A stretch of 64,000 nt of DNA from Xestospongia muta (Eukaryota; Porifera; Demospongiae; Haplosclerida; Petrosiidae), in assembly GCA_963693285.1 (NCBI GenBank), contig OY848918.1, positions 20,161,484-20,225,483 on the forward strand, given 5' to 3'. Made by a program: the position numbers and the translations under genes. Positions 3,037 through 29,066 of the stretch are shown here, one piece after another. How positions within the stretch are numbered: position 1 is the first letter of the stretch; each line of letters opens with the position of its first letter. Under the pieces are notes generated by a model. The model saw only the letters and a program-made list of their open reading frames with translations. It searched no databases and was not told where the DNA came from.

Positions 3037-3300
3037 GAACAATCAAAGCTAGTTAATCTAATAACTGACATTGAGTATGACTGGGATAAGCTCAGTGTTT
3101 CATTGGAAGTTGAAAATCAGGTTTTAGGTTGTTTGTATTGAAGTAATGATGATAAGACAGCTAAACTTATTGTTGTCTTATGTAGCTGGATCAATACATT
3201 TCCATCAATCTGTACTTGGAATGTTGTTTTGACTTTAGTTGAGGGTCCTATAGTTAAGCATCATTCAACAGCAATGAAAACCCAGAGATTTTAGCTAAAA
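3037..3300 (+). pseudogene. Degraded death-domain exon, second remnant (paralogue of the gene ending at 47580)
   Basis: One frame reads LVNLITDIEYDWDKL, SLEVENQVLG, TAKLIVVLCSWINT and TWNVVLTLVEGPIVK. It aligns residue for residue with the last exon of the intact gene at 47252-47580 (LVGLLTDIEYEWYKI, TKLIKVLRSWMDT, TWDVVLAAVEGPIVK). It is broken by TGA at about 3139-3141, inside the segment matching LIQNNDD, and by an early TAG near 3292. The 3' splice acceptor is not clean. This is direct evidence that the death-domain gene family once had another copy upstream. Orientation is the same as the intact gene. Confidence 0.85.
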
Positions 3301-19485: not shown

Positions 19486-19833
19486 AGGAAACAAAAACAA
19501 AATGAATAACCCTGAGTTTCGTTATGAAATTATCAATAAGCTGACAAGACAACTCTAAATGTAATATTCTCCACCAGTGTCAGATCAAGTTCACAGAAAT
19601 TAAATGAGACAGACAATCATTTAGAGACATTGTATAACAGAATGATTGTATGTTGTGTACATTACTGAAGAAGATAAAAACAACTCATACTTTTTGTAGT
19701 TGGCACATGCTCAGATAAACCAGCTTTGTGTCCTACCGAATGTTTTCAGTTAAATTATTCTCATAAAAAGTACAGGGTTTAGTAATAATGGTATTTGTAG
19801 TGACCTTTTCCAGTCTTTTACACTGCAAAAAAT

Positions 19834-20425
19834 AAAAGTTAAAATAACCATTATTCCTGGGTTAAATCCATTGAAACTGAGATGACCTTATTTAAAGTTA
19901 ATTTAACTACATTAAATGTTAGGTATTTTAAATACAAAATAATTGCTTGCTTTGACCAATTTTTAGAAGGTTAAAACAACTTCGTATTATTTTACTTGAT
20001 AGAACCATTTTATTTATTTAAAATTACCTAATTTCAACTGTTAAATTTTAGTTCTGGATATTGGTTAACTAAACACAGTAGTAAGTTAAATTAACCATTA
20101 TAGTTATGGTAATTGTAAACTTTACTTAAGTTAAAATTGTTAAAACAATGATGGTTACAATCTATTTAGAAAAATAGATACAATTGCAAGTAAATGTAGA
20201 AACTATTTAGCACATACCAATCATAAATGAATTAATATACTTAAAATTAATAGAATTGGTTAAAATATAGTCTTAATAATCATAATAATATAATGACATT
20301 TGAATACATGTCTAATCAATAATGGAAATAAAACAAAATACTAATCATAACAATATCACATTTAGAATACAAGTCTTATTAACAATTGAGAAAATAGCAA
20401 ACACAAAAAAGCTAACCATGATTGT
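19834..20425. repeat. Left subterminal repeat region of the two-gene transposon
   Basis: Short degenerate copies of AAATAACCATT, GGTTAAAT and TTAAATTAACC recur on both orientations here. The 3' side (25870-26110) has AAATAACAC, TAATAACCTT, AAATAACT and AAATAACCTTTG. These are probably transposase-binding sites by analogy with CACTA elements. Confidence 0.55.
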
Positions 20426-22877
20426 TTAAAATGATAAGATTGAAGTCTTTTGAGCTAAACAACAAACTTTTGTATGTCTGTATATTTGTTTCTTTTCTTC
20501 AGCAGTAGCTGGTAGGTTCCAAATAAATTCTTGAAAGAATAAGGCCACTTCTTGAACTTGTTTTTCATAGCGTAAGTTGAATATATAATGAGATATGAAC
20601 CACAAATTCAGCCCTTTAGCAAAATCATTGGTCTGTGTTAAAACAAGGTCATCCACGAAAACAAAATAATCAGCTGAATCTTGGTTTTCAAAACTGGCAA
20701 AGCGTGGGGCTGTTCTCCTTGGACTCCTTGTAGCAACGTCTGAAGGATCATCAGTCATCTGGGAAGAGCAAACAGATAATAAGTATTAATTAATTACATT
20801 AAATTTCCAGTGAATGTCAAGAATAACTAATGGTTGCATTAAAGTTGTTTTTATACCATTCAATCTCATGAAAGGTAGCACATGTATGCATTTTCATAAA
20901 AGCACATCTTATAACTTACCATACATTTTTCATATATATAAATTAGTACATCTTCACTTCCTTTTTTTGGTAAAAGTCTACATAAGGCAGATAGAGCAAC
21001 CTTCTGCTTCTGGTTATCATCACCTAGATTTAAAAACACCAGATATTAATTTACTACTTCACTTCATAATATTAATAAAGAAATCACCTTTATATTTTGT
21101 TTGCTCTATTGAAAGAGTTTCAGCTTGTTTTCCAGATAAACTAGTGTTACAATATTCTGTAATAGCTGGGACCCACTTATTAGTCCAACAGTCAATGGCA
21201 GCTTTAAAGAGTCCTGTCCCTTCAAGAATGAGATCAACCTCTTGCTCAAGCTATCAAAAAAAGAATATACAAATGAAATTGTAAGAAGCCAATCAGTATT
21301 ATTTTGCTAGCACTTAAATATTTTTCTATAAATTTAACATCTTTCATAACATATTATGGTCTATAGAGAAAGCATGTACTTACTATTTAACCTGGTTGCT
21401 TAAAGCGGCTTTTAATGTTGACAATAATTCCTTTCCTCATGCATGGTAAGGGGATCAGCTAGAAATAACATATACTTAGTCTTACCACATAGTTTTTATG
21501 TAGCTCATTATAAGTTTGTAATAGACTAGTTGCACTAATTTCCTCAGAGTCAAGCAAAACATCTTCACGTCTCTTTGTGAATGTCTGCTGAGACAAAGAT
21601 AACACTATCTCTTTGCGTGGATTTTCTTTTTGCAATTCCTTTTGTAACAATAATATATTTCGAGATACAGTAACACTATCATCAGCAGTGTCCCTGAGTG
21701 GAGGATAACGAGTTAAAAGTAAATTCTTTTTTTTGGGCCTTCCACGTTTTGATTTTGGGGTTTGATCTACTTCATTGTGACTATTGTGTGGCCTTTTTCG
21801 TGGAGTACCTCTCACATTGTGTACTCGTTCAATAATTTTTTTCTCCCAAGAGCCCTGCAGAGTTAAAACTTGTGATTAACAATTAAGAAACATATATAAA
21901 CACTTCAATCAGTAAACAAAACCACATTGAAACCATAATAATTTAGAAGACACCTTTTAACCACAAATTACTTCACAGTTTACACATTATAATAACATAT
22001 CCACTGTGAATATATTTATGGTAGGCTCTAGTTTGTAATACATTATAATTATATTTAGGCAACTCACATATCCAGAAACTTTGTGTCCAATATCTTTCAT
22101 AAAATCATACTTCTTGACTAGCATTTTTGCAACTTCAGTACAAAATTCTTTATTTGGACTTGAATTAAATGAGTACATTTGAACCACAAGGTCACGAACT
22201 ATTTCACAACGAATGTCTCTCACCAGGGATAGCTTTCGTTCTTCTTCTGTTGGTTTGTTAATGCACTCCATAATAGATGGCCTCCATGTATCCGGTATTT
22301 TAAATTCATGCATCATTGCAGAGGCAGAAGAAGCAACAGAAATGTTGTCAGATTCACTATAGCTTGGAGATGACATTGGTGGAGAATACGGTATAGATTG
22401 AGGACTGTTTACTGAATATGGAGATTGCTCTGATATTTGAGGGGGTTCTGAAGTCTGCATCGAAACTATTTCAGCTGATATAGCTACATGTACCTATACA
22501 TAAACATTACAATATTTCTTGTATCCATAAACATACAATTGAATTATATTTATTCATAGGTCATCATAACTAAATGGAATAAACAACGAATAGCCTACCT
22601 TAGCCTGTAATCTTAGTATTTTCTTTACCACACCAAGCTTGGACACGAGAGACTTTACTTCATCTTCTGTCAATTCTAAGAAGGCTTCGCCATCAATATC
22701 ATTACCTGTAACATCAATTCAGTATTCATATGTCAGTGTTTCTCGGTACTTACTTTCCAATACGTTACAGACGTCTGACGGTATGCCATTATCCTGTAAA
22801 AACATAGCAAGATTCACGGGGTCGATATCACGGCTGAACTTAACCAATTCTCCTTCTGATGTAGCAGTTACAGCCAT
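20426..22877 (-). CDS. SAM-domain protein, SAMD3-like, companion gene of the transposon
   Basis: Seven exons on the minus strand (22877-22754, 22705-22599, 22493-22068, 21854-21486, 21250-21088, 21023-20920, 20758-20426) join in phase to 541 residues with no stop. Every border is GT-AG. Residues about 13-77 form a SAM domain (FSRDIDPVNLAMFLQDNGI, DGEAFLELTEDEVKSLV, LGVVKKILRLQ). Next comes a Pro/Ser-rich linker, then DTWRPSIMECIN and IVRDLVVQMYSF, MLVKKYDFMKD, SGYGSWEKKIIERVHNV, a basic patch (PKSKRGRPKKK, AT-hook-like GRP) and a helical C-terminal half. The order and length (human SAMD3 is about 520) match SAMD3-like proteins that are multicopy in fish; this comparison is from memory. It is transcribed away from the transposase. 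The likely role is a DNA-binding or assembly partner in transposition; that is inference. Confidence 0.85.
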
Positions 22878-22990
22878 TGCTAGCACGCTCTATTGATCTG
22901 AGAAATGGCTTGATCTGATTGGCTTAAAAATAATGTTGGCGCTAGTAGTTATATAGAGGAAATTAATCAATAGTTATATAGAGAAAATTA
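22878..22990. promoter_or_regulatory. Shared divergent promoter of the two transposon genes
   Basis: Only 113 bp separate the two start codons. The stretch contains an inverted CCAAT box (TGATTGGC), a repeated GATCTGA, a TTGGCGC motif, and a direct 25-bp repeat (TAGTTATATAGAG at 22946 and again at 22971) with TATA-like cores next to the transposase start. The 5' leader of at least one gene must overlap this interval. Confidence 0.6.
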
Positions 22991-25641
22991 ATGATGGCAA
23001 GTGAAACATCTCCAATTGTTGAATGCCCTCTGTGTGGCTACTTCTCGCCGAGTTTGACGTTTCATGTAAGTCATCTACGCTTGGTGCATTCCAAGGATTC
23101 ATCTTTCTCCATTGTATGTAATATCGAAGGATGCAAACACGTATTTAAGGCATTCACTGCTTACAACAGCCACATATACCGTCATCACAGAGTAGCACTT
23201 GGATTAGACAAACATATTGAAGAGTCAAATGTACAATCAAGTACTGCACTTCAACCTTCTACTACAGCTAATGATCTTGACATCTTTGATCTAGTCAGTG
23301 ATGAAGCTCCTACTAGCTCATATGCTGATGCTAATGTAACTTTAACAGATTGCAGAACCACTCAACAATTTGATCACACTATTAAAGCTGCTAAGCTCCT
23401 TCTTCATCTTCGAGAAGGTCGTAACATCTCTCAAGCTGCCTTAATTGATGTAATGGAGAATTGTCATATTTTATGTGCACAACAAGTTAATAATTTAAAA
23501 CATGAAGTACGACAAAAGTTGATTCAAGCTAATATTGACATTAGCAGTATTAATGGATTGGAAGATGTTTTAAATGAACAACCATCTCATCCATTTGAAG
23601 GTATCGATACTATTTATTTATTTGAGAAGTATTGTGCAGATCACTTGGGCTATGTAGTAAGTGAAAAACTATTACATGAATTACATGTTTTTAGTCATCA
23701 GAATTTATTGTTAGTATATTGTAATTGTATATCTCACATCTATTATTCGTTATCTTATTGTAGGAACCTCAAGAAATTTCATTGAAACAGACAAGTTGGA
23801 TTAATCAGTTCGGGGGTTACAAACGGAGAAAGGTATTGAAAAAGGATAAATTTTATTACATATCTTTGCTGGATAGCCTTACAAATATCCTTAAGCTAGT
23901 GGATTTTCAAACTGAAGTCTTAAATCCTCACAACAGTAATGTTGATGAGCAATTACATGACTTCTACGATGGCACAATATTTCACTCACATCCATTGTTT
24001 AACTCAGATCCATATGCTTTGCAAATAGTGGCTTATTACGATGAAATTGAAGTAGTAAATCCTCTTGGTTCATATGTCCGAAAGCACAAACTTGGGTGCA
24101 TGTTTTACTTTCTAGCTAATGTAAGGCCCCAATATCGTTCCACTCTAAAAACAATACAACTTGTTGCTGTTGGAAAGTATGAGGACATTCAGAAACATGG
24201 AATTGATGAATTTATGGCACCATTTGTTGATGACATAAAGACCTTGTACTGTAATGGAATAAAGGTTTCAATAGCAGGCATAGACCATATTTTACATGGT
24301 GGACTATTGGCTTTCTTAGCAGATAACCTTGCTGCTCATTTAGTAGGTGGATTCAAACAAAGCATGTCCTTTGCATTAAGAATATGTCGGGAGTGCATGA
24401 TCACACGTGAACAATCACAAAGTCTATTTTTTGAAAGTGATTGTGTAATACGTACACCAGACACCCACTTTGAGCAGTGTGCACTTTTGGCAGGTCCACT
24501 TTCTGAACATCATTCAACATCTTATGGAATTACCAGACTCTCAATCCTAGAAGAAATCCCCAGTTTCTCTGTCACCAGTGGACTACCACATGATATAATG
24601 CATGACTTATATGAAGGAGTTGTACCATATCACTTGTCACTTCTTCTTAATTATTGTGTTCATGAAAAGTTTTTTACACTTGAGGAATTAAATCAGAGAA
24701 TTGGAGCTACCGACTTTTTAAATACCAAACCTTGTCTCATTGACCCTAACATATGCCGTACTGAATCTAAAGTAAAACAGTCAGCTTCCCAAATGATGAC
24801 TCTCTGTCGTGAATTTCCGCTTTTAATTGCAGACAATATTCCTGAAAATGATCCCCACTGGCAAGAGTTCCTGCTTCTTCTCAAAATATGCAGTATTGCT
24901 ATTGCACCAACATGTACTTATGACCTTATAGCTTATCTTAGAATAATTATTGATGAGTACTTAAGTACATTCCGTGGACTTTATCCACATAAGACTTTGA
25001 TACCAAAACAACACTATATGATTCATTATCCTTCACAAATGGAGAAGTTTGGGCCACTAATTAATTCATGGACTATGCGTCAAGAGTCTAAGCTAAGCTT
25101 TGTCAAAAGAGCATCTCGTTTTAGCAATTATAAGAATGTGCCTAAAACAATAGCACGAACACATCAATTTTGGCTTTGCTATCAAATGCATTCTAATCCC
25201 TTCATGCTTTCACCTCAAATGGATATAAGTCCAAAACAATTTTCTAATACTCTATCATGTGAAGATGACTACATTCAGTGTGAACTGAAACGAATAGTTC
25301 CAAATCTAAGTGATGATGATGTTCTTTGTCATCCTGAATGGGTTAATCTTCAAAGCTCACATTTTCACAAAGGTTTGTACATCTTAGTTAAGTATGATAT
25401 AATTACTCCAGTTTTTGGTAAAATTATTGACCTAGTTACTGTTGACAACACACTTATTATATGTGTGCTAGAGTACTATGGTCATTTCTTCAGTTCTCAC
25501 TACAATGCATTTGCAATTAGAACTAAAGGTGTTGTCTCAGCTATTTATGTTTATTCCATAGCAGATCATCGTCCTTTCCATGCTCGATTCAATTTTTCAC
25601 CAGAGAAACATTTATATATAACATTGCCATACTATTATTAA
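22991..25641 (+). CDS. C2H2-finger CACTA/KDZ-type transposase, two exons
   Basis: Exons 22991-23656 and 23764-25641 join in phase (GGCTATGTA / GAACCTCAA) into 847 residues. The intron is 107 bp with GTAAGT and TTGTAG borders. Residues 12-33 (C12, C15, H28, H33) and 43-66 (C43, C48, H61, H65/66) form two C2H2 fingers. The core follows with VVNPLGS...KHKLGCMFYF, then FLADNLAAHLVGGF (D409, likely second catalytic Asp), CRECM, GLPHDIMHDLYEGVVPY (MHD 501-503), and WTMRQESKLSFVKR (E663, likely catalytic Glu) followed by NYKNVPKTIARTHQFW. This layout is shared with tnp2/KDZ-like transposases. The first catalytic Asp cannot be assigned with confidence. No disabling change was seen. The start is the first of two adjacent ATGs. 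A related C-terminal fragment lies at 4667-5649. Confidence 0.88.
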
Positions 25642-26166
25642 TAATCATTGTTATGTGTTGATAGTTATTTGCTCCAATGTTTCGGTTTAAAAAATAACAT
25701 TTTATTTCATAATTCAATCATAAACTTAATAAGAATAAATAAAGTCAAAGGTCAGTACTGACACTTATAAAAAGCAATACCTTTAAAAATTAACCTGAAA
25801 ATTTAGAAGTAATTATTATAGTAATCAAATAAATTGTTAATCTTAACTGAAATCAGTCTTCCATTTTAATGTAAATCCAGGTTGTTTCAATCTTGATGGT
25901 ATTGAAATAACACTATTAACAGATTATTATAACTATTTTTTTAGGGAGGATATAACTTGATATATATGTTTGTTGTTTTTACCTTCTGATTACTTAAATT
26001 TATCTTTCTTGGTGCTTATTATAACCTTGAATGGTTGTTTGAAATAACTAAATTAGAAATAACCTTTGATTGGCATTTTTATATTAAGGTTGTTCATTAT
26101 AACTGGGGAAAATGCAATTAAAAAAACCACATAAAGTTAATTTAATATTTCATTTTTTGCAGTGTA

Positions 26167-29066
26167 ATGTCATTTAAAAAATGCTAATGCCAACTCATTT
26201 TTATTGAAAATAGTATAATGGTGAACATTTATCTATTTGATATTAAAAAAAATAAATGCGATAATATCAGTTGGCATTGCAAATCTGATTGTTATTAGTT
26301 GAAATGAATGTTGGAACATTTACTTGATATATTAGAAAGTACAAATATTATTATTGTATCTGGACAAGAAATAATATTTTGTTTGTAAAACAATCTTAAG
26401 TTTATTTTAATGACTTGGTGTGATGGACCTGATTTTTATCAAATAAAAGACTGAAGAATTAAGATGTCATACTTAATTTAGCATTAGAAAGCAGCCTTTT
26501 ACTTGTGGAAAATTATTAGATTCTTGAGAAAACAATTTTCAGTCTGTTATAGGTGAACATTTTCAACATGTTCTGCTTTGGTTTTGTCTATAAAGAAATA
26601 AACTAATTTAGATACATTATTTTGTGATTAGTGTAGCTTATATTTAGAATAAAATTATGTTGGTAGGAAATATCTATCACTAGCAACATTTCATAGGAAG
26701 ACAAAGCCTAATAAGGACATTAAGTTATTGCCTAAAAATTTTGACATTAACCACTTTTATAAGTTTTTCATTACACCTTTTTTGTTTTTGATCTAGTAAT
26801 AACTTTAAGTTTTATTCTTTAGTATTAATTTTAAATAAGTAATGATTGGTGATTTATATTATAAAAATTGTTACATCTTCTATTATTTAAATATAGATAT
26901 CTTAATCTGTGTTGTTATTAATTGTATTTAGTTTCTTTGAAATTTATGAGTTATGCCATTTTTTGTATAATATATGTTTTTTTTTGTCATACACTTGTTT
27001 AGATAACAGATTCCTATATTAAGTTCTTATATTTCAATGTAGTTTATTTAGAATTTACTTTTATTTTAATACTTTAAAAACGTTATATAAACAGAATATA
27101 GTTGTAAAGACTAAATCATCAATTTCTATCTGTCCTTTTAAAGTCATAACAGAGGGAGCACCATCTAGCACTACCAAATGACTACCAAGCTAAAGCTGTA
27201 GAATTTCTTTATATAAAGACACTTATACTCTATTATAGAATGTGGATTGATTAGTTACCAATTGAAAATGCCATGAAATTACATGTCCAATACAGTAATA
27301 TGTTTATAGCATACTACACTGAACAAAATAGTAATAATTTTATTAAGTCACTTATTTTATTTCATTTGTGATAAATGTGAAAAGGATCTGTTGACTCAGC
27401 AATATGAGAAAGTTTTAAGGAAATTGTTATTGTTGGTAATCAGAAGTTTTCATTTTCTCTGTCAGTCACTCAATTTATGATATTTATATAAGTTTTTATT
27501 TTTATTTACAATGGTAGAAGAAAGGAGTTTTAGGTGTACAGTGGATCTGAAAATCAATTTTATTTTTTATGAAAAATAATGATTTTTTATATTTTCTATC
27601 ATATTGATTTATCATAATTTGCCTTAACTACACTAATAATTATTAGAGTTCAATCTAGGCTCTCTGTTGTACTAATACTTGTATTTTAGTAGCCAAGCCA
27701 TAGTGTAGTGACATTACTTTATGCATGGACTATTAAAAAGTATATTAGAGCTCCATTAGCTGCATGTATATTACATTCAATCCGTTTAAAAGAGTAACAC
27801 CCACTCAAATACAAGCCATAAGAATACCAGTTGTTTTAATGATATAAGCCTAACTCAGCAAAATTTGTATCAATTTACATCTAAGAAAGCTGTGTCTGTT
27901 TTTATACATACAATATAGCAATCAACTGAAGTAAATATAAGACTAACATAATACATTAATACACTGTTATATACAGTGTATATATGAGAGGGAGTGTACA
28001 CTTGTCACAACTTTACTATGGCTCTTATCACAACCATACTCATAGTAGCTATGACAGGACATTTATCAACATTATAGTGAATAGTGACATTATCCATTAA
28101 AACACAACAGCATATGCATGCAATATGTTTTAAATAATGAATTGTTGTACACTGGTGTTCCAAGAACTGTACAAAGGTTTTGTATATCATGTAATTTGAA
28201 AAATGATAACGACACTGGTATGATTCGAGGATATCAAATCTATTATTATTCTGAGTTCAAGATATTTTCTTTACTCTTAATTTAGTTTAAAATAAAGAAA
28301 GGTACACAGGACAGGAAATAAGACATAATATAAATGGATGGTGGCCTATATCTAGTATATATATAGTACATCAAATGAAAATTGGGTAAATGTAAGATTA
28401 ATAATTATGATCAATGCATGGATTATTTATGAATGTGTTCAACAATCAGGTTGTCCTCTTTATTATATAAAGCTAAAATACTAAATAACAATATAACAAC
28501 AACATTAATGTATGTAATGATGATAAGAGAGTACACAATATGGTAAAATTTATATTAATAATCTCAATAAAAACATATATTGGGGCACACACTGCTACTT
28601 GTAGAGTGATGCATTTATACCTAATGAACACAAGAAATGACTAATTGTGTATGTAATGGTTAGAAGTATAAACCTGTCTTTAGTCATGACGAAGAGATTA
28701 TTATAGAAATAATTTTTGAATTGAAAGGTTCTGATCAATATTAAAATATAGTGTATTATTATATATCATAATAAGTAGTCACAGATCAATTCTATTAGTC
28801 TAGCAACATCACAGGTTCATGGACACAACTTCCTTTTAATTTTGCTCATACTGACTGTCTTATTCAAACATCTAATTATCACTTATCAAATGATAAAATT
28901 AAATTAATTCGAAATTATCCATCCATTTAAATATAACTACAGAATAATAGATATATTATACAAATTTGTTACATGTATTAAACACTATTACTATCAACTT
29001 AATTATGTAAACATACATGTAGTATTGATGTCTTTTTAGAGGTTTGAGTATCTAAGATAACGTATG
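26167..29066. other. AT-rich stretch without genes
   Basis: Nothing recognisable was found on either strand. Open frames are short and lack splice context or motifs. Confidence 0.5.

Follow-up and report, generated by a model that had tools for sequence, protein, structure and literature searches.

We analysed a 64,000-nucleotide stretch of the genome of the sponge Xestospongia muta (contig OY848918.1, positions 20,161,484 to 20,225,483), here called the window, and found in it a recently mobile cut-and-paste DNA transposon of the CACTA/EnSpm type. The element carries a transposase gene on the plus strand and, head-to-head with it on the minus strand, a gene for a protein with a SAM domain, with transcription diverging out of the gap between them. 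It is likely that this SAM/AT-hook protein, of unrelated origin, plays the end-binding helper part that TNPA plays in plant CACTA elements.

Mobility of the element and class of its transposase

An initial annotation, made from the letters of the window, had described matched 13-bp ends flanked by TA and two divergent, spliceable and stop-free genes of 541 and 847 residues. Both the ends and the exon models were reproduced, and all introns, including the six predicted in the seven-exon partner gene, run from GT to AG (Table 1). The 12-base core of the terminal repeat occurs once per orientation in the 64-kb window, and the element arms together with the flanking bases form a 37-nt inverted repeat (81%). 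To find copies, we searched the host genome (G000, 158 Mb in 28 contigs). One end motif together with TA was found 29 times, compared with once for the reversed control. Four copies, including that of the window, possess both ends and measure 6,344–6,367 bp. Each of the three others differs from the window copy by 8–11 mismatches over 6,366 alignment columns, in addition to gaps of 23–24 bases.

The flanking dinucleotide is TA for the window, C2 and C4 copies and CA for the C1 copy. Since CA stands on both flanks of the latter, the dinucleotide does not belong to the ends: it is a genuine target duplication, whose length falls within the short (2–4 bp) target-site duplications of CACTA/EnSpm. 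For the empty-site search, the flanks were joined with one copy of the 2-bp target and matched against the genome; the sites obtained in this way are paralogues. The window insertion gave 13 junction-spanning matches nearly end to end with 92–96% identity, and others with 76–80%. The C2:11.7 Mb copy has such matches on its own contig (91% and 93%) and the C1:23.76 Mb copy has them at 83–96%, with weaker ones elsewhere. The best matches for the C4 copy reached just 74–76%. Five empty sites, representing three of the four insertions, were aligned base by base through the junction (286/295, 281/295, 246/257, 291/297 and 262/271 identical positions); the fifth has another dinucleotide at the target itself. 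The recent activity claimed in the initial annotation is thus borne out by near-identical copies with both ends, matching target duplications and empty sites within the same genome.

The window copy is not typical of its family. Of the four, it alone has a 23-bp deletion near position 20482, by which the C-terminal 19 residues of the SAM partner are altered, and its transposase differs from those of the other three by three amino-acid changes of its own. Both frames are open, but the altered C-terminus of the helper makes "possibly autonomous" doubtful for this copy.

The transposase belongs to the CACTA/EnSpm (Tnp2) type. Each of its seven D-D-C(2)C-H(3)H-E residues is invariant in 46 of 46 aligned sequences, and they correspond to the signature by which CACTA/EnSpm is defined, a D-D-E triad whose second D and E enclose C(2)C and H(3-4)H (PMC12730594; here and below, papers are cited for the part of their text that was available). 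The Pfam model Transposase_21 (Tnp2) matched 44 of the 46 members (best 3.2e-8), while the window transposase alone scored 5e-4 to 8e-4, below the Pfam curated cut-off. The termini are of the 5'-CAC...GTG-3' kind (typically CACTA/CACTG), with CACTG in the four copies and CACTA at one end of a divergent family. The structure model is confident and matches RAG1 and Transib; a BAH-like domain is probably present at its C-terminus. Pfam C2H2 models gave weak matches to the window protein (0.03–0.06), and similar Cys/His patterns occur in open reading frames of divergent families.

The label "CACTA/KDZ" of the initial annotation holds for its first half. The Transposase_21 match, the CACTA-type ends and the 2-bp duplication speak against a KDZ transposase, and no KDZ model was among the Pfam matches listed for the window protein and the 46 members. 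The KDZ member Zisupton makes 8-bp duplications (PMC12730594), whereas here 2 bp stand on each flank of the element copies and once at the empty sites.

Table 1. Positions of the element and its parts in the window, and of the further two-ended copies in the host genome
Feature	Position	Strand	Remarks
Transposon, whole element	19821-26164		6,344 bp
Left target-site duplication TA	19819..19820		in two unoccupied paralogous sites, TA occurs once at the junction
Left terminal inverted repeat CACTGCAAAAAAT	19821..19833	+	13 bp
Left subterminal region	19834..20170		clustered RGTTA/TAACY motifs
SAM-domain partner gene	20426..22877	-	exons 22877-22754, 22705-22599, 22493-22068, 21854-21486, 21250-21088, 21023-20920, 20758-20426; 541 aa, no internal stop
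Partner exon 4	21486..21854	-	SKRGRPKK AT-hook-like core
Partner exons 1 and 2	22599..22877	-	coding SAM domain (PF00536)
Intergenic gap	22878..22990		113 bp, separating the two divergent start codons
Transposase gene	22991..25641	+	exons 22991-23656, 23764-25641; 847 aa, no internal stop
Two C2H2 zinc-finger patterns	23024..23185	+	C12-x2-C15-x12-H28-x4-H33; C43-x4-C48-x12-H61-x3-H65; read from translation
RAG1/Transib-like catalytic core	23764..25224	+	D315, D409, C430, C433, H639, H643, E663 (full-length numbering)
Probable C-terminal BAH-like domain	25213..25623	+	residues about 484-620 of exon 2
Right subterminal region	25615..26151		RGTTA/TAACY motifs
Right terminal inverted repeat	26152..26164	-	inverted copy of left
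Right target-site duplication TA	26165..26166
Further two-ended copies	C1:23757541-23763907; C2:11715863-11722229; C4:7659347-7665712

Several further loci were noted. The flanks of the window insertion (19671–19820 and 26165–26314) belong to a repeated unit whose 13 near-full-length paralogous matches (92–96%) lie on the contig of the window at C2:18.9–21.0 Mb, which suggests that the element jumped into a segmental or gene array. Seven of the 29 end-motif matches (L001–L007) lie in the same orientation within 74 kb at C1:11.84–11.92 Mb and are perhaps an array of end-bearing fragments. At C1:20.86–22.16 Mb, ten transposase fragments with 43–47% identity, all on the minus strand, cover about residues 22–166 of exon 2 and are spaced by approximately 100–250 kb; they look like an old element carried by a segmental array. 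Three shorter relatives, L015, L017 and L018 (C4:6.84, C2:17.77 and C2:6.88 Mb), have a common deletion that joins element positions 3235 and 5575 and removes the transposase. These common breakpoints suggest that a single deletion derivative went on to transpose.

The gene pair, the SAM partner and the subterminal motifs

To assess how regularly the two genes occur together, we pooled several genome searches, in two of which 70 of 389 and 150 of 200 candidates were scored. Among the matches scored, 11 transposase matches are 360 aa or longer, and 10 of these have a head-to-head partner, the exception being C1:18918661. In the pooled set, a transposase stands head-to-head within 6 kb of the partner at 39 of 66 partner loci, compared with about 0.16 expected by chance; these totals take in short, decayed and divergent fragments. 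The identity of the paired transposases to the query goes from 100% down to 29–61%. The partnership proposed in the initial annotation therefore holds for all but one of the longest matches and extends to divergent families. Since the same gene pair is present in several old families, the two proteins probably work together.

In comparisons between families, complete exon-2 sequences of the transposase give a ratio of nonsynonymous to synonymous changes (dN/dS) of 0.17–0.18, a partial exon-2 sequence gives 0.25, and two partner exons give 0.19–0.25. These ratios indicate that both genes are under purifying selection between families.

The alignment search found 13 relatives of the partner; the two with names belong to Amphimedon queenslandica and Halichondria panicea, both sponges. 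The SAM model PF00536 matched 3 of the 13 members, with a best value of 1.4e-7 in the homologues. An AT-hook consists of a GRP core flanked by basic residues and suits AT-rich DNA, and SAM domains are known for self-association. The RGRP core in exon 4 is invariant in all six aligned partner proteins, and the partner also has conserved helical regions. A model built on the Amphimedon relative (mean predicted local distance difference test score, pLDDT, 64) contains a confident helical domain. In an older relative at C2:16.60 Mb, partner exons 1–6 are present without an indel.

Clustered subterminal repeats, a further feature of CACTA/EnSpm, were also found. In the left 350 bp we counted 13 instances of the motif RGTTA/TAACY, a number that none of 1000 shuffles attained (mean 3.9), and in the right 550 bp 10 instances, which 5 of 1000 shuffles attained (mean 3.7). 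The GTTAA/TTAAC version is enriched at the left end (12 versus 3.2; 0 of 1000). As the motif was picked by eye from the window element, the tests on other sequences matter more. These gave 7 occurrences in one divergent family (mean 2.8; 19 of 1000), 9 in another (mean 3.2; 1 of 1000), whose second copy gave 3 of 1000, and 6 at the right end of a deletion derivative (mean 2.4; 24 of 1000).

Two near-identical 22-bp repeats lie immediately upstream of the transposase start (22946–22992), each with AGTTA, the motif that is clustered at the element ends. They are a possible autoregulatory site.

Proposed role of the partner and other explanations

In the mechanism we favor, the transposase, with its C2H2 patterns, RAG1/Transib-like DDE core and probable BAH-like tail, would cut at the CACT(G/A) ends and join them to a 2-bp target, which is TA in three of the four copies. 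The partner would most likely bind the clustered AT-rich subterminal motifs, bring the two ends together by SAM-mediated self-association, and recruit or license the transposase. The DNA binding, the self-association and the requirement for the partner are inferred. The partner fits the role of TNPA in that 10 of the 11 longest copies have it next to the transposase, and in its possible AT-hook and its domain of a self-associating kind.

Several observations weigh against an end-binding helper. With regard to the pairing, 88 of the 129 loci related to the transposase showed no partner within 6 kb, and a head-to-head transposase is absent at 27 of the 66 partner loci. The unpaired loci are mostly short or divergent exon matches, and some of them may be one-gene elements. 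The genes stand together at well-kept loci, and the checks that the initial annotation named as able to refute it (genes apart at most other loci, ends absent from other copies, no empty sites) came out for the most part in its favor, with the empty sites found as paralogues. The partner frames are decayed in the three deletion derivatives that lack the transposase, which is the usual fate of non-autonomous copies. Where the transposase is present, the partner can also be damaged: at C1:24.04 Mb partner exon 4 has a 1-base deletion, and at the transposase locus C8:2.79 Mb, which counts among the ten paired long matches, partner exons 4–7 were not found in the stretch examined. Another older relative, at C4:4.77 Mb, likewise has a 1-base deletion in partner exon 4.

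Other such points concern the domains, the selection and the motif. The window partner matched PF00536 with an E-value of 0.021, below the Pfam cut-off; the Pfam AT_hook model matched weakly in 2 of 13 partners (best E-value 0.72); the RGRP core is absent from two deep families (L072 and L073); and the model of the Amphimedon relative gave no convincing fold match. Synonymous change had reached saturation in two further comparisons of the partner. In the youngest family dN about equals dS in three comparisons with few changes, so that selection is visible between families only. The RGTTA motif is short and degenerate as well as chosen by eye at the left end, and its GTTAA/TTAAC version shows no enrichment on the right (5 versus 3.1; 205 of 1000 shuffles).

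One alternative, which we consider unlikely, casts the partner as a passenger or anti-silencing factor: the element would have captured a SAM gene of its host, whose product would protect it against silencing, as TET/JBP genes might in fungal transposons, and have no role in the transposition reaction. A SAM protein could act on chromatin, the transposase itself has a probable BAH-like domain, and transposons do acquire genes of the anti-silencing type (PMC12730594). However, the pairing and its orientation are kept across families with transposases down to 29–61% identity, which would be older and more constant than expected of a passenger, and the subterminal motif clusters suggest the need for an end-binding protein. 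Somewhat less probable still is an element-encoded repressor or copy-number regulator that limits transposition by binding to the ends and to the 113-bp promoter region common to both genes. The divergent genes do share one short intergenic region with two AGTTA-bearing repeats, and plant TNPA also has a Suppressor function (PMC2613891), but long-lived selection for a strict repressor in a selfish element would be harder to explain; our data do not separate repression from help, and both roles may coexist. Finally, it is highly improbable that the locus consists of two adjacent genes of the host, or of an element of the KDZ type, instead of a CACTA transposon, since the copies, ends, 2-bp duplications and empty sites speak against both and the KDZ label of the initial annotation is the one point in favor of the latter. 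In sum, the observation made in that annotation was confirmed and its interpretation partly supported.

Comparison with known two-protein systems

The plant CACTA elements Spm/En, Tam1 and Tgmt* (TNPD/TNP2 plus TNPA/TNP1) resemble the sponge element in their CACT ends, short duplication, subterminal repeats, Transposase_21/tnp2 and a second element-encoded protein. Spm/En needs TNPD and TNPA, of which TNPA binds the subterminal repeats, and TNPA and TNP1 of different plants have little mutual similarity (PMC2613891). The plant helpers arise through alternative splicing of a transcription unit shared with the transposase (PMC2613891), whereas here there are two divergent predicted gene models with separate starts. 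The duplication of Tgmt* is 3 bp, compared with 2 bp here. The helper described here is unrelated to plant TNPA, and we know of no plant CACTA helper with a SAM domain.

In animals, the TRC elements (SmTRC1, Spongebob) are known CACTA elements that likewise have Transposase_21 and 2-bp duplications (PMC1636069; PMC4298943), but their ends begin with CCC instead of CACT(A/G). SmTRC1 obtains its other proteins from splice variants, and the available text of PMC1636069 describes no SAM partner. In a search of the open literature, with Repbase outside its coverage, no description of a SAM partner of CACTA elements was found.

The transposase shares its fold with RAG1 and Transib. RAG and Transib make 5-bp duplications, in contrast to 2 bp here. 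RAG2 is a kelch/PHD protein, whereas the partner here is of the SAM/AT-hook kind and the BAH-like domain lies within the transposase itself. We therefore entertain, with less than even confidence, a broader version of the helper reading: an animal CACTA lineage may have evolved, independently of TNPA, a dedicated SAM/AT-hook partner whose SAM domain would let it polymerise along the subterminal repeats and so synapse the ends; the chemistry would fall to a RAG1-fold transposase that has a BAH-like chromatin reader of its own. This would be a two-protein division of labour comparable to that of RAG1/RAG2 but made of other parts, a comparison that we offer just as tentatively.

Two-protein CACTA transposition is known from plants, and an unrelated second protein in an animal, if true, would mean that end-binding helpers were recruited more than once. 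The RAG1-fold core and its probable BAH-like tail are also relevant to the question of how transposases related to RAG1 gained chromatin-reading parts. The element is young and simply laid out, with its genes head-to-head, and it has near-identical open-frame copies and paralogous sites that lack it, so that the requirement for a second protein is directly testable. SAM-bearing genes in other animals could include descendants of the partner.
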